24,260 nucleotides of DNA from IMG/VR virus record IMGVR_UViG_3300036393_000027, positions 1 to 24,260 of that record, one strand, 5' to 3'. The stretch comes from a virus. Made by a program: the position numbers and the translations under genes. Shown piece after piece: positions 630 to 22,117 of the stretch. Each line of letters starts with the position of its first letter. Position 1 is the first letter of the stretch. The notes beneath the pieces were generated by a model. It saw only the letters and a program-made list of their open reading frames with translations. It had not been told where the DNA came from and ran no database searches.

Positions 630-1316
630 TCAGCGCACGTTTTTCTTTCCCACGATCCGATGGCAGATCGGCCAATCCACGATGGATTCGGTGAAGTCGA
701 TAGGAGGCTGATATTGCCGCAGCTTCCACTCCTGCGGCGACCAGCTGACCAATGTCTTGATGATCGCCTCGGCTTCGCCAAGCGGCGGCAAGTGATAAAG
801 AACTACGTCGGTATCGCGCTCCGGCAGTTTATGGGGATTGACCCAGGCAATGTCACCGGGCCTGTAGGCGGGGACCATCGATTCGCCGACAATCAGTATT
901 CCGTAAGGATCTCTGACATGAAGTAGCTCCTCTGGCGGAGGAAGCCGATCGATCGGCGTATGGTCGATGATGAGGTGCCCCTCGCCGCCTTGTGCGGCGG
1001 AATAGATCGGCACGAGCCTGCCGGATGCTGACCGATTGATGGGGATGATGCGCGGAGCCTCTCCTTTTGTCCGCTGGCCGCCAAGATTCAAGACCTCTTC
1101 TTCGGTTATGAGAGGCTCGCCGCGGCCGACGAGCAGGGGGATGAGCTTCTCGATAATTTCATGCGCCAGATAATGGCGGCCGAATTTCTTCGGATCCTCG
1201 TAATGCTGGTAGCCGGATGCGGTTTTATAACCGAGCGCTTGAGCCGCTTCGGCCATGGTTGCGCCCGCGCGATTGCGCAGCGCCTTTAAACGTTCCGTGA
1301 CCGGAATATCCGACAT
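630..1316 (-). CDS. CI-like phage repressor with S24 (LexA-type) autopeptidase domain
   Basis: This is the likely lysogeny repressor. Residues 1-60 form an XRE-type helix-turn-helix DNA-binding domain (TMAEAAQALGYKTASGYQHYE). Residues 100-225 are an S24/LexA-type peptidase domain: GESMVP supplies the nucleophile Ser146, AIIKTL supplies the general-base Lys187, and SAAQGGEG near residue 106 is the expected self-cleavage neighbourhood. In this family, RecA on single-stranded DNA triggers cleavage between the domains and induces the prophage. The length (228 aa) is normal for phage CI proteins. The ATG at 1316 has no Shine-Dalgarno sequence. A minus-strand promoter, TTGATT-17-TATACG, would start transcription at or next to this ATG, so the mRNA is probably leaderless, as for lambda cI from PRM. 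GCGTAT repeats over that promoter suggest autoregulation. Confidence 0.9.
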   Translation of the reverse strand: MSDIPVTERLKALRNRAGATMAEAAQALGYKTASGYQHYEDPKKFGRHYLAHEIIEKLIPLLVGRGEPLITEEEVLNLGGQRTKGEAPRIIPINRSASGRLVPIYSAAQGGEGHLIIDHTPIDRLPPPEELLHVRDPYGILIVGESMVPAYRPGDIAWVNPHKLPERDTDVVLYHLPPLGEAEAIIKTLVSWSPQEWKLRQYQPPIDFTESIVDWPICHRIVGKKNVR

Positions 1317-1388: not shown

Positions 1389-1811
1389 ATGAACAACACC
1401 TCAGTCGACGTTCCCCCGGATCTGCGACCCGCCGCTCGAGAGACGCTCGCGGCGGCAGGGCCGGTCGAGCCGTTACCCTCCCCAGAGCTGGCTCCCGGCC
1501 CATCCCCTTCCTTGCCTGCCCGGAAGTCCCGAGCCGATTACTTTCATCTGCGGCGAACCCCGGCTTTGGTGAATCAGGCCCGTTCGCTTTATCGGCGGGG
1601 CGAGCGTTACGCGACGATCGCCCGGGCTCTGGCGGTCAATCCCGACACGGTGCGCCGCTGGCTCGACCCTGATTACGATCGTATGCGCCGCAGCCGCGTC
1701 GTTCACCGAAGTGAGAGTGAAGAACTCGCCTTGGAAGAAGCGCTCCTGCCGACGCTTCCCTATGTTCCCGGGATCAGCATTTCCGGCCGTTACCGCATGA
1801 AGCGGCCTTAG
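1389..1811 (+). CDS. helix-turn-helix protein divergent from the repressor (140 aa)
   Basis: Residues 58-94 (starting PALVNQARSLYRRGERYATI and ending NPDTVRRWLDP) form a homeodomain-like helix-turn-helix of the resolvase/transposase/terminase-small-subunit type. Residues 20-47 are a Pro/Ala-rich linker, and the C-terminal 40 residues are acidic then basic. By position it could be a Cro-like or delayed-early regulator, or a DNA-binding partner of packaging. The sequence does not decide between these. The ATG at 1389 lacks a ribosome-binding site and falls where the promoter's transcription start is expected, so translation from a leaderless mRNA is likely. It is the first gene of the rightward run, and the next gene follows after 41 bases. 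Confidence 0.65.
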   Translation: MNNTSVDVPPDLRPAARETLAAAGPVEPLPSPELAPGPSPSLPARKSRADYFHLRRTPALVNQARSLYRRGERYATIARALAVNPDTVRRWLDPDYDRMRRSRVVHRSESEELALEEALLPTLPYVPGISISGRYRMKRP

Positions 1812-1852
1812 GCACTGTTAGTCGGCCAAGCATCGACCTGAAAGGAAAGCCC

Positions 1853-2398
1853 ATGAAAACCGGACGCAAACGCAAGCCGGGGCGCCGCTACGCCTCCGGT
1901 GACAGGGTGAAGAACGTGCGCCAGGAAGAAACACGCCGCACGGCGCTCGAGGCCCGTATGCGCATATTTGGCGTTAGCCTCGAAATGGCCGGCCGCGATG
2001 TGATGGGTTCACCTCTGGGCCGTCTGCTAAACTGGAATATCATCACCCCCGCCCAGGCCGACGCCGGCTACGACTTTGCGCTGACCATGCGGGACTATCT
2101 GGCGGCAAGTGGTGGTCAGCGGCCGAGTCAGGGAAAGGCCGGCTTCCTTCCGGCGCTTGGAGGCTCGGGCAACAGCGACATGCCGATCGGAATACAGGAA
2201 CGGGCACGCACTTACATGGAAGCGCTGCGTGAAGTGGACTGTCTTGATCCGGCTTCGCCTTCGGCCACGAGCATCGTGTGGGACGTCTGCATCTCCGAGA
2301 ATGATCGGATGCGCGACAAGGAGCTAGGTCTCCTGCGCTCGGGTCTCAATGCGATCAGCCGGGTGCATCATCGCGGCATCGTTTCGCGAACCGGATAG
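1853..2398 (+). CDS. conserved hypothetical protein upstream of terminase (181 aa)
   Basis: The N-terminus is strongly basic (KTGRKRKPGRRYASGDRVK). A central segment at about residues 52-80 (SPLGRLLNWNIITPAQADAG) matches the pattern of a protein I recall next to terminase genes in many rhizobial prophages: a basic GRKRK start, then LGRL..G.I...Q..AG. The function of that family is not known. The basic tail and location are compatible with a DNA-binding or packaging-related role, but this is a guess. An AAAGGAAAG ribosome-binding site precedes the ATG. After its stop comes the 265-base non-coding segment with the two repeat-terminator modules. Confidence 0.7.
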   Translation: MKTGRKRKPGRRYASGDRVKNVRQEETRRTALEARMRIFGVSLEMAGRDVMGSPLGRLLNWNIITPAQADAGYDFALTMRDYLAASGGQRPSQGKAGFLPALGGSGNSDMPIGIQERARTYMEALREVDCLDPASPSATSIVWDVCISENDRMRDKELGLLRSGLNAISRVHHRGIVSRTG

Positions 2399-2411
2399 CG
2401 GCGCGCACGCC

Positions 2412-2459
2412 TTGACTCCTCGGGCCTAAGCATGAGAGTTGGGAAATAACACGATCGAA
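2412..2459 (+). promoter_or_regulatory. 48-base conserved module, copy 1 (candidate late promoter/leader)
   Basis: Begins with TTGACT and contains CGGGCC and then the 16-base block GCATGAGAGTTGGGAA, followed by ATAACACGATCGAA. It aligns without gaps to copy 2, 136 bases downstream. TTGACT resembles a -35 box, but no good -10 hexamer stands at 16-18 bases (best GAGAGT). A hairpin with a T-run follows within six bases. It could be an activator-dependent late promoter with an early terminator, an antitermination site, or a terminase recognition site. Confidence 0.5.
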
Positions 2460-2464
2460 TAATC

Positions 2465-2497
2465 AGCCCGGAGCGAACGCTGCTGCCGGGCTTTTTC
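2465..2497 (+). terminator. intrinsic terminator 1 in the late leader
   Basis: AGCCCGG (2465-2471) pairs with CCGGGCT (2486-2492), with an inner AGCG-AA-CGCT stem, and is followed by TTTTCT. It lies directly after conserved module copy 1, so a transcript started there would be stopped before any gene unless antiterminated. Confidence 0.7.
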
Positions 2498-2547
2498 TAT
2501 GCGGCCAGCAGTCGAATTTTCCGTCGTGCTCCGAACCGCTTTGTCTG

Positions 2548-2595
2548 TTGACTTCCCGGGCCAGCGCATGAGAGTTGGGAATTATCAAGATCAGA
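2548..2595 (+). promoter_or_regulatory. 48-base conserved module, copy 2
   Basis: Same order as copy 1: TTGACT, then CGGGCC, then the identical GCATGAGAGTTGGGAA block, then TTATCAAGATCAGA. Most differences fall between the conserved blocks, which suggests selection on the blocks rather than recent duplication. It lies 69-116 bases upstream of the small terminase start and is followed by its own hairpin. Confidence 0.5.
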
Positions 2596-2603
2596 TTTAT
2601 CGC

Positions 2604-2633
2604 GCCCGGCCCCCAAAGTGCCGGGTGTTTTCG
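2604..2633 (+). terminator. intrinsic terminator-like hairpin 2 before the terminase genes
   Basis: CCCGGC (2605-2610) pairs with GCCGGG (2620-2625), with a loop of nine bases, followed by TGTTTTCGTTT. The stem is shorter than in terminator 1. Its place after module copy 2 repeats the module-then-hairpin order of the first unit. Confidence 0.55.
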
Positions 2634-2663
2634 TTTCGAACTCCAAAAAATGGCAGGCCTCCC

Positions 2664-2933
2664 ATGTCGAAGAAGCGTGACCGCGCCGATCCGTTCCATC
2701 GTGAGCGCCGAAAGATCCGCGAGAGTGGCGTCCTCAATGCGTTGATCGATTATGTCGAAGGAAAACGGGATCTGTCATCGAGCCAGGTATCTGCCGCTCT
2801 CGGGCTGCTCGGGAAGTCCATATCGGACCCCTCGGCTCTTGCGCCTCGTGGGGCGGTCGAGGTCGGGAAAAATAACACACTCACGGCCGATACGGGCCCG
2901 ATAGAAATTCGCATTGTCGACGCTCAACGTTGA
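2664..2933 (+). CDS. terminase small subunit candidate (89 aa)
   Basis: A short protein with a basic N-terminal half (residues 1-22) and a helical pair at 24-55. The motif SSSQVSAALGLLGKSISD at 38-55 matches the pattern of phage small terminase-type proteins, in which a 'T/S-x-x-Q-x-x-A-A-x-x-L-L-x-K-x-x-x-D' helix precedes a short acidic tail. It sits immediately upstream of the large terminase, and its end overlaps the next reading frame. Small terminases form rings that select viral DNA for packaging. At 89 residues it is shorter than most, and it lacks an obvious helix-turn-helix, so a separate DNA-recognition protein (for example the 1389-1811 product) may contribute. I chose the ATG with a weak GGCAGG-type site, since the open frame upstream runs through the second repeat module. 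Confidence 0.6.
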   Translation: MSKKRDRADPFHRERRKIRESGVLNALIDYVEGKRDLSSSQVSAALGLLGKSISDPSALAPRGAVEVGKNNTLTADTGPIEIRIVDAQR

Positions 2934-4287
2934 TGTGCCGCGCGCCTTCCAGCCGCTCTTGGTGCCCCGGCGCTATAAGGGCGCCTATGGCGGGAGGGGT
3001 GGCGCGAAATCACATTTCTTCGCCGAACAGCTGGTGCTCCGTTGTTATGGGCGTCAGACACGGGCGGTGTGCATTCGCGAGGTACAGAACTCCATAAAGG
3101 AATCGGTCCGGCAGCTCATCATCGACAAGATTGCCAAATTCGGCGTCGGCAAGTGTTTCCACGTTCTTGAGACCGAAATTCGCGGCGCCAACGGATCGTT
3201 GATCATTTTTCGCGGCATGCAGTCCTATAATGCCGAGAATATCAAGTCGCTGGAGGATTATGACATTGCGTGGGTCGAGGAGGCGCAAAGTCTCTCGGCG
3301 AAGTCACTGCGTTTGCTGCGGCCGACGATCCGCAAGGAGGACTCGGAGATCTGGTTCAGCTGGAATCCGAGATACGAGACTGATGCGGTCGACGCCTTCT
3401 TCAGGAGCGGCAGGCCACGTGCGGACGCTATTGTCGCTTCGGTGAACGGGCGCGACAATCCTTGGTTCCCCGAGGTCTTGCGGCGCGAGAGGGACAGCGA
3501 CTACATCTCGGATCCCGAGATGGCGGCGCATGTCTGGGGCGGCGCCTACGAAATGACGTCCGAGGCTGCGTATTATGCCGGCCTTATCGCGCAGGCGGAA
3601 AGCGACGGCCGGATCGGAGATTTCGGTTATCGTGTGGACCTTCCTGTCAGGACTGCCTGGGACATCGGCGTCGACGACTATACCGCGATCTGGTTTGTCC
3701 AGGATGACGGAACTGGCGCTACGGTCATCGATTATCACGAATTCTCCGGCCTCGGCGCTGAGGACATCGTACGAACTGCGTTGCCGGAGTTGATACCTGA
3801 TCCTCCGGAGAGTTTCCTGGCGCGGCGTCGTATCGAGCGTGTCGACGCCTTTCGCTATGGCGAGCATTTTCTGCCGCACGATGTGAAGGTGCGCGAATGG
3901 GGGGCGGGCGGCAGAACCAGGGCCCTGACCCTCATGGCGCTTGGAGTGAAGCCGATCCATGTGGGTGCTCAGCAAGGGCCGGTCGAGCGGATCAATGCCG
4001 CGCGAAGGTTGCTGCCCCTCACTCGGTTCAATCGGACCAAGCGAGTGATGTTGGGCGTGTCGAGGTTGCGGCGCTATTGCCGGCGAATGAGTGACAGTCT
4101 CGGCGCTTATACCGGTCCGCTGCATGACCAGAACAGTCACGGTGCGGATGCTTTCGGCGAATACGCCATCAACTGCGAGCTTGTGATACCGAAACCACCG
4201 CTCATTCAGAAGCCGGACCGCTCCCGCGGGACAGTTTGCCTTCCCGGTCCCCCCGTTGATCGACCAAGCAAGAGAACGCGTACATGA
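2914..4287 (+). CDS. terL: terminase large subunit (packaging ATPase-nuclease)
   Basis: This is the motor that pumps DNA into the prohead and cuts concatemers. The ATPase domain has a Walker A loop GGRGGAKS (residues 26-33), a Walker B strand DYDIAWVEEA (115-124) with the catalytic Glu, and a motif III-like WFSWNP (147-152). The C-terminal RNase H-like nuclease has candidate metal-binding aspartates in TAWDIGVDD (Asp250), LPHD (Asp323) and HGADAF (Asp412). Length (457 aa) and motifs fit the PBSX/Terminase_3-type family. The frame opens with TTG at 2914, overlapping the small subunit gene by 20 bases; a GTG at 2935 is an alternative, and neither has a clear ribosome-binding site, so translational coupling is likely. 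The stop overlaps the portal start as ATGA. Confidence 0.93.
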   Translation: MSTLNVDVPRAFQPLLVPRRYKGAYGGRGGAKSHFFAEQLVLRCYGRQTRAVCIREVQNSIKESVRQLIIDKIAKFGVGKCFHVLETEIRGANGSLIIFRGMQSYNAENIKSLEDYDIAWVEEAQSLSAKSLRLLRPTIRKEDSEIWFSWNPRYETDAVDAFFRSGRPRADAIVASVNGRDNPWFPEVLRRERDSDYISDPEMAAHVWGGAYEMTSEAAYYAGLIAQAESDGRIGDFGYRVDLPVRTAWDIGVDDYTAIWFVQDDGTGATVIDYHEFSGLGAEDIVRTALPELIPDPPESFLARRRIERVDAFRYGEHFLPHDVKVREWGAGGRTRALTLMALGVKPIHVGAQQGPVERINAARRLLPLTRFNRTKRVMLGVSRLRRYCRRMSDSLGAYTGPLHDQNSHGADAFGEYAINCELVIPKPPLIQKPDRSRGTVCLPGPPVDRPSKRTRT

Positions 4288-21160: not shown

Positions 21161-21289
21161 GTCGACCAGTATAGCCGTTTCGGCGGCGTCGAGCCACCTC
21201 CCATAGTGACCGGCCTGCGCCTGCTGCGCATCAGGGGCGATGCCTCTCCGCGTCTCATATCCCATAATCTCACAACAAAGGATCTCGCC

Positions 21290-22117
21290 ATGAAGACCTG
21301 TCATTGGCTTGCCGCAGCCGGTTGTCTGCTCGGTATCCTGAGCCTCGCCGGCTGCGTCCGTGCGTCCCCGGCGCAAGAAACCTGGGATCTGAAGAAGATG
21401 GCACAGCAGATAGACCAGACCAATGTCGTGGTCGGAGTGGGCGGTGATGGATTCTGCTCCGGCACGATCATCTCAAAAAAGCACCGCCTGGTGCTTACTG
21501 CCAGTCACTGTGTCACGGATCGGATCACCCGTGAGCAGCAGGAATTTGTTGATCCAGTGACCGGCGAGGTGACGAAGAAGACCATCGAGAAGAAACTGGA
21601 TCTCGAGATTTGGCAGAACATCACCCGAGACTATCAGGTGATATCGTCTCGTCACTATGTGGCAAAGATCATCGGCAATGACGCCGGCAACGACGTGGCG
21701 CTGCTCCAGATTCTCGATGTCGACTTCAGAGCACCGATGGAGGCTCCACTGGCTCCGGACAGTCATGTGCTGATGCGGGGACAGACTATCTATGTCGTCG
21801 GCAACCCAGGAGTGATCCTCGACAATTCGGTCACAAAGGGCATTGTTTCCTCGGCTGAACGCACGCTTGCCATCGGAGGAAAGTCGCTCAAGGTGTTTCA
21901 GATCGACGCCGCCAGCATCGGTGGCAATTCCGGTGGGTCGGTTCTGAATGAGCGCGGCGAGCTCGTGGGGACGCTTGATGCGGGATTGCGCGGATCGGGC
22001 ATCAACTTCGCCGTGCCGATCTCCGCAACCAGAGCGCTTCTGCGCCGTAGCGGACTCGGTGATGTCGTGGGCGATAATGCAAAGAAGCAGGATCGTCTGC
22101 CGCAGGAGGCGCGCTGA
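21290..22117 (+). CDS. trypsin-like serine protease, predicted lipoprotein, in the lysis cassette
   Basis: An S1-type (chymotrypsin/DegP-like) protease. The catalytic triad is visible as LTASHC (His73), GNDVALL (Asp135) and GGNSGGSV (Ser214), with a CSGTIIS strand before it. No PDZ domain follows. The N-terminus is a lipoprotein signal (hydrophobic LAAAGCLLGILSLAGC) with lipobox Leu-Ala-Gly-Cys at 19-22; residues after Cys22 (Val, Arg) do not show the Asp that retains lipoproteins at the inner membrane, so outer-membrane anchoring is expected. Positioned between holin-like and endolysin genes, it could help break envelope proteins during lysis, or act in the lysogen. AAGGATCTCGCC supplies the ribosome-binding site, and the stop overlaps the amidase start (TGATG). 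Confidence 0.85.
   Translation: MKTCHWLAAAGCLLGILSLAGCVRASPAQETWDLKKMAQQIDQTNVVVGVGGDGFCSGTIISKKHRLVLTASHCVTDRITREQQEFVDPVTGEVTKKTIEKKLDLEIWQNITRDYQVISSRHYVAKIIGNDAGNDVALLQILDVDFRAPMEAPLAPDSHVLMRGQTIYVVGNPGVILDNSVTKGIVSSAERTLAIGGKSLKVFQIDAASIGGNSGGSVLNERGELVGTLDAGLRGSGINFAVPISATRALLRRSGLGDVVGDNAKKQDRLPQEAR

Follow-up and report, generated by a model that had tools for sequence, protein, structure and literature searches.

A doubled promoter-terminator module ahead of the terminase genes of an alphaproteobacterial temperate phage, a probable site of late antitermination

The DNA that we analysed (the window) is a 24,260-base IMG/VR virus record of an alphaproteobacterial temperate phage. It comprises, in this order, an S24 repressor gene, a helix-turn-helix gene, ORF 1853-2398 (ORF1853), two short modules, and genes for terminase, portal, major head protein and amidase. 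The stop codon of ORF1853, a gene on which the earlier note was silent, lies 13 bases before the start of the first module. The features considered here are listed below.

630-1316, minus strand: S24-type (self-cleaving) repressor gene, divergent from both regulator genes.
1389-1811, plus strand: helix-turn-helix protein, 140 aa; possible second regulator, in what may be a GafY-like position.
1853-2398, plus strand: ORF1853, candidate late antiterminator gene, 181 aa; phrog_15385 (unknown function), profile similarity to DUF6456.
2412-2417, plus strand: copy 1, -35-like hexamer TTGACT; TTGAC is invariant in 10 aligned phage or prophage modules.
2418-2434, plus strand: copy 1, 17-bp spacer with conserved CGGGCC and GCATG; candidate regulator-binding element.
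2435-2440, plus strand: copy 1, hexamer AGAGTT at the -10 position; poor match to TATAAT.
2441-2456, plus strand: copy 1, conserved initial region GGGAAATAACACGATC; putative start and candidate pause region.
2465-2497, plus strand: copy 1, intrinsic-terminator-like hairpin and T tract.
2548-2553, plus strand: copy 2, -35-like hexamer TTGACT.
2554-2570, plus strand: copy 2, 17-bp spacer; candidate regulator-binding element.
2571-2576, plus strand: copy 2, hexamer AGAGTT at the -10 position.
2577-2592, plus strand: copy 2, conserved initial region GGGAATTATCAAGATC.
2602-2636, plus strand: copy 2, intrinsic-terminator-like hairpin and T-rich tail.
2664-2933, plus strand: candidate terminase small subunit, by position; no family match.
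2914-4287, plus strand: terminase large subunit, start of the late operon (Pfam Terminase_3, 2.1e-34).

GCGTAT and TACGT motifs, which are candidate repressor operators, are repeated at 220-300 and 1322-1380, flanking the repressor gene and the divergent regulator promoter. Elsewhere in the window, a trypsin-like protease gene (21206-22117; PHROG protease, 2.9e-16) lies beside the amidase gene and is possibly a cargo gene.

The two modules (2412-2456 and 2548-2592, 136 bases from start to start) align without a gap and are identical at 37 of 45 bases, compared with at most 30 of 45 for the best pair in 300 dinucleotide shuffles of 1800-3200. Exact matches between them include TTGACT, CGGGCC and GCATGAGAGTTGGGAA. 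Each unit is laid out as TTGACT, 17 bp, AGAGTT and GGGAAATATCAAGATC, with a hairpin 53-56 bases from the -35; in both copies AGAGTT is followed by GGGAA[AT]TA..CA.GATC, about 9 bases, a G+C-rich hairpin and a T-rich tail. The hairpins, which start 9-10 bases past each core, had free energies of -19.2 kcal/mol (z -2.2) for copy 1 (stem 2465-2471/2486-2492, then TTTTCT) and -17.3 kcal/mol (z -3.2) for copy 2 (stem 2602-2610/2620-2628, then TTTCGTTT). A simple terminator scan, which allows loops of up to 8 bases, listed neither of them on the plus strand; the loops here measure 14 and 9 bases. With respect to sigma-70 promoter elements, TTGACT at a 17-bp spacing is clear and AGAGTT is poor as a -10; this position is occupied by AGATTT in many chromosomal copies and by TAAAAG in a second system described below. 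The earlier note had reported two gapless copies, a hairpin within about ten bases of each, the lack of a clear -10 box and the terminase genes directly behind, and our analysis confirmed this description.

Other readings of the core were discarded. A leader peptide (ATG AGA GTT GGG AAA) was rejected because the reading frame is not kept: in one genome (G062), the T run ahead of GGGAAA differs by one base between copies. An RNA hairpin formed by TTGACTC and GAGAGTT, proposed by RNAalifold, showed no compensatory change and overlaps the -35. CcrM sites (GANTC) were also rejected, as they are not conserved, copy 2 having GACTT.

We then compared the modules with those of relatives. An exact 16-mer search of viral contigs yielded one real relative (L003), three of the first four hits (L001, L002 and L004) being chance matches within unrelated sequence. 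A degenerate pattern combined with ORF1853 loci added L087, L088/L093 and L008, the latter with one copy, and a scan of genomes for the ORF1853 family added L100 (Aestuariivirga sp. YIM B02566), L101 (Rhizobiales bacterium Y(2018)), L102 (Taklimakanibacter lacteus) and L103 (MAG AP_21); more distant ORF1853 homologs were found in Sinorhizobium, Rhizobium and a Rhodobacteraceae MAG. The tandem pair upstream of terminase is kept in related phages and prophages of Aestuariivirgaceae. It directly follows ORF1853 in L003, L087, L100, L101 and the diverged L093, and in these five it leads into the terminase region wherever downstream sequence was read. The core thus survived the check that the earlier note had set in advance, which was its conservation upstream of related terminases. 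Across phages, each copy resembles its counterpart at the same position in the pair, indicating that the doubling predates these phages and was kept. In T. lacteus, about 4 kb containing other genes separate the pair from ORF1853, and a third core precedes a virion-structural-protein gene (L148_5370; PHROG 25516). No further module was found before the scaffold-position gene of the window, even with filters off; L148 has one there. In the L008 prophage (2402-3373), which appears to lack its portal gene at that place, an L,D-transpeptidase (YkuD) gene separates the terminase from the single module.

The position directly upstream of the terminase genes is what would be expected of a pair of terminase recognition (cos/pac) sites, as the earlier note had also suggested. 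This reading is very improbable and not supported, since cores also stand before the virion-structural-protein gene, beside the L,D-transpeptidase gene of L008 and at many chromosomal sites far from any packaging genes, and since the -35-like start and the T-tailed hairpin give the element a direction on the strand.

The core has a constant length over 37 copies and is most strongly conserved at TTGAC, in parts of the spacer and at TGAGA[GT]TTGGGAAATATCA. A terminator-like hairpin was present at 22 of these copies, compared with 2.0 expected from shuffles, the 22 including all eight phage copies; the other 15 have no recognisable terminator. The hairpin-bearing copies of T. lacteus include three that precede terminase genes (L148_14997, L149 and L150_4205) and one with no terminase identified (L151_10850). 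The sequence of the stems differs while their pairing is kept, as in GCCCGG/CCGGGC, GCCCGCGG/CCGCGGGC, TGTGCCCGG/CCGGGCACA and ATGCGCCCCG/CGGGGCGCAT. The evidence for compensatory changes, which the earlier note had proposed to look for, is based on this wider set of copies; in the ten-sequence alignment A2, formal covariation was nil because the stems there hardly vary.

To describe the distribution of the core, we searched 69 genomes of the family with a sequence-only model of it (R2). It matched strongly in exactly the five genomes that encode a close ORF1853 homolog (77-96% identity). The other 64 yielded nothing beyond two marginal, partial matches (E 0.02-0.04), and the core was absent from 336 further genomes of the class. 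The chance of such an overlap is 9e-8 if genomes are taken as independent, which they are not entirely, kinship being ignored in this figure, and the coupling partly reflects linkage inside one prophage type. Two strong cores were counted in G001 and G002; in G003 (T. lacteus), G004 (MAG AP_21) and G062, the copy number was roughly 20-30.

The abundance of cores in these three genomes, the four near-identical tandem copies at one locus of G004 (L166) and the many similar copies of G062 would fit a dispersed, MITE-like repeat without function for the phage. We hold this to be very improbable: the pair is kept at orthologous positions in phages down to the diverged L093, the core is conserved while flanks and stems diverge, and a second system, unrelated in sequence, retains the same geometry (see below).

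ORF1853 matched no Pfam or NCBIfam model, including those of the Q families, and remained below the cut-off of PF20057 (DUF6456). Comparison of its family profile with that of DUF6456 by HHalign gave a probability of 94.6% over 125 columns (E 7e-8, for one comparison), while reversed and column-shuffled control profiles gave at most 0.4%. DUF6456 itself was found in 53 of the 69 family genomes, and no PF20057 match occurred in the five that carry modules. An AlphaFold2 model of ORF1853 was of moderate quality (pLDDT 70.6, pTM 0.62), and Foldseek retrieved nothing significant with it. In a VIA-align comparison of the model with 523 chains, the top two were both Q21 (6p1a, Z 5.3, rmsd 3.7, 96 aligned residues; 6p1c, Z 5.2), with V-ATPase and designed helical proteins close behind; values of Z below 8 are weak for helical proteins, and the match counts as support only because the Q hypothesis preceded the search. 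In published annotation, homologs of GafA appear under DUF6456 or as helix-turn-helix proteins (PMC9638019). GafZ of Caulobacter resembles the C-terminal part of GafA and is an antiterminator with a site between the -35 and the -10 (PMC11150451). From these two reports we infer that DUF6456 corresponds specifically to the GafZ part; the DUF6456 match of Caulobacter appeared in our searches as a control hit only. As ORF1853 neither matches the Q families by sequence nor reaches the DUF6456 cut-off, we assign it to neither group.

Further evidence was provided by remote homologs of ORF1853 (30-37% identity) in G019, G020, G043 and the Rhodobacteraceae MAG L116. These genes are followed on their own strand, at a distance of 85 nt to 4 kb, by a TTGAC[AG]-N17-TAAAAG module with a terminator. 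Its consensus is TTGAC[AG]-N17-TAAAAGTTCCG[AT]TATTG, followed by the terminator hairpin, and the gene behind it has weak similarity to minor tail protein Z. Apart from the -35, this core is unlike that of the window in sequence; counted from the -35, its stem begins at +53 to +55, as compared with +53 to +56 in the window type. The pattern was present in four of the 69 genomes, all with ORF1853 homologs. We consider this second system the strongest single argument that ORF1853 homologs and promoter-terminator units belong together.

No such unit was found within 450 nt of the homologs from Rhizobium phages RHph_* and Sinorhizobium. In the Rhizobium phages, the homolog follows rusA-type genes and precedes the terminase, at the early-late boundary, like lambda Q. 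Among these phages (L094-L099, e.g. L095:5690-5760), five have after the homolog a near-identical structured element, GAGGCGAATGCC[AG]GAGAGACTACATCGGCTTATGGATGTCTCTCCATTCCTCGTCGCCTC, of which L099 has a diverged form, and Rhizobium phages also carry tRNA-like GGGAAGG...CCTTCCCGACCA units, which ARAGORN does not call. As for DUF6456 genes, that of phage L256 was rejected as a third instance, since the hairpin that follows its TTGACA is too near to leave room for an RNA start in between, and that of G054 had no module.

We consider it probable, from the layout and its conservation, that each copy is an antitermination-controlled late promoter comparable to lambda pR'-tR', doubled and loaded by the product of ORF1853. 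In each, promoter and intrinsic terminator would form a single unit. RNA polymerase would start at about 2447 and 2583, some seven bases past the -10 position, and, if unaided, would halt at the hairpin, whose stem would begin near +18, with release near +45 to +50, yielding an RNA of roughly 50 nt. An antiterminator of the phage, most probably the ORF1853 product, would recognise a promoter-embedded core made up of the 17-bp spacer and the -10/initial region, the candidate letters being CGGGCC and GCATG in the spacer and GGGAAATATCA. Loaded onto the early complex, it would carry transcription past the hairpins and on into the genes for terminase and virion. In the lysogen, the regulators would be silenced by the S24 repressor (630-1316). 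TATCAA/GATATT, near +1 to +6 and conserved in both systems, may be a sigma-dependent pause element, as in lambda, and the doubling could raise output or offer a second chance of loading. The regulator, which the earlier note had sought outside the window, is thus probably inside it, directly upstream of the modules.

Because of the poor -10 hexamer, an activator may be needed instead of, or besides, the antiterminator. The cores could then be promoters turned on by a DNA-binding activator, either ORF1853 or the helix-turn-helix protein (1389-1811), the hairpins insulating them from upstream transcription or acting as weak attenuators. That the core extends through the spacer, that several chromosomal copies have no terminator and that GafY-type activators exist in GTA systems (PMC11150451) agree with this possibility, as does the presence of the helix-turn-helix gene, which adjoins ORF1853 in the window, L087, L093, L102 and L103 (its AlphaFold model, pLDDT 66, was too poor for a fold search). 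We nevertheless think it unlikely, because terminators placed inside each unit at a constant distance, in two systems of unrelated sequence, would be odd for pure activation, because the -10 of the second system is better (TAAAAG) and because the ORF1853 family relates to DUF6456.

The preferred reading, late promoters loaded with an antiterminator, can be set against known systems. As with lambdoid Q proteins and their pR'-tR' sites (lambda, 21, 82), a candidate regulator gene directly precedes the late promoter, a terminator-like hairpin, as judged by sequence and folding, stands at once behind it, and a strongly conserved element is embedded in it. Among the chains compared, the predicted fold of ORF1853 ranks Q21 first, with a weak score. 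Unlike Q, ORF1853 has no sequence match to the Q families, and the unit is doubled, with further cores at chromosomal sites. The stem here would begin about 18 nt after the proposed start; in lambda, the distance to tR' is about 200 nt. The earlier note's comparison with lambda pR'-tR' has thus gained support of a comparative kind (geometry, coupling to ORF1853, the second system and DUF6456).

Caulobacter GafZ/GafY and Rhodobacter GafA are, like the proteins considered here, alphaproteobacterial phage-type regulators, and ORF1853 shares with them a remote profile similarity through DUF6456. The scattering of further sites in the chromosome is another common point, GafY having about 18 further promoters elsewhere in that of Caulobacter (PMC11150451). 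In contrast, the Caulobacter-type ZBE palindrome of GafZ, GCGCCCG-CTGGCGC, is absent from the spacers of the window, ORF1853 is not recognised by the DUF6456 model, and the terminators directly follow each promoter, while the Caulobacter terminator lies behind the first gene. AlpA of Pseudomonas aeruginosa is an antiterminator of lysis-related genes with a promoter-embedded site between the -35 and the -10 and no reported sequence relation to known antiterminators; its terminator starts 26 bp past the PA0807 start site (PMC7969949), showing that such compact units exist. AlpA therefore resembles the present case in its promoter-embedded site and in terminators close behind the promoter, but its units are single and belong to a chromosomal programme. 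We regard the unit as most likely a variant form of promoter-loaded late antitermination.

We also looked at the 20-30 cores scattered in the chromosomes of T. lacteus, MAG AP_21 and G062. Some stand ahead of peptidase/endolysin-like genes, and behind many others there is no gene in the same direction. Many of the G062 copies lead into a repeated gene, the start of which, MALGLRIIREIVQALLR..., is homologous to ORFs behind two T. lacteus copies, L152 and L154; the product of L154 contains a region resembling peptidases and endolysins, with PHROG matches to peptidase (1.9e-9) and endolysin (1.9e-4) and a Pfam Peptidase_M15_2 match that stayed below cut-off. Many members of this G062 family (L218-L236) look truncated. 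In G004, most copies lie behind one gene and face a convergent one, according to heuristic gene calls. The four tandem cores of L166 (G004:C548, 258-787) are 124-193 bases apart and mostly without clear terminators.

Self-contained promoter-terminator units, many of them intergenic in the chromosome and often convergent to the next gene, might also be genes for a very short, terminated, trans-acting RNA, the late operon having another promoter. This is improbable, since conservation peaks in the promoter and initial region and not in the body of the RNA, loops and stems diverge freely, and no Rfam family reached its threshold (best RF02278, 16.6 bits against a gathering score of 50; none at the modules).

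Given the genes of L154 and G062, the cores of G003 and G062 may form a regulon, while the convergent layout in G004 makes it likely that copies there are decayed or repeat-like. In G003 and G004, the ORF1853 cassette includes the S24 repressor and the helix-turn-helix protein. It is conceivable, though we would regard it as doubtful, that in G003, G004 and G062 a cellular regulon has arisen from a phage antitermination system, with one such cassette controlling 20-30 scattered units, among them several terminase loci and a gene family of which some members encode peptidase/endolysin-like domains, and that DUF6456-related regulators form a Q-like class of antiterminators.

Our literature searches yielded no earlier report on this system, and the sole antiterminator that they yielded for Alphaproteobacteria was GafZ of the Caulobacter GTA. 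How late genes are switched on in alphaproteobacterial temperate phages is largely unknown. A phage regulator remotely akin to the GafA/GafZ domain, placed beside a promoter-terminator unit, would link the regulators of gene transfer agents to late control in phages. As arrangements, the doubling of modules and their presence in chromosomes would both be new. The small size of the cassette, one gene and about 95 bp, would let antitermination be tested directly. If the wider proposal is true, DUF6456-related, Q-like antiterminators would be common to alphaproteobacterial phages and gene transfer agents.
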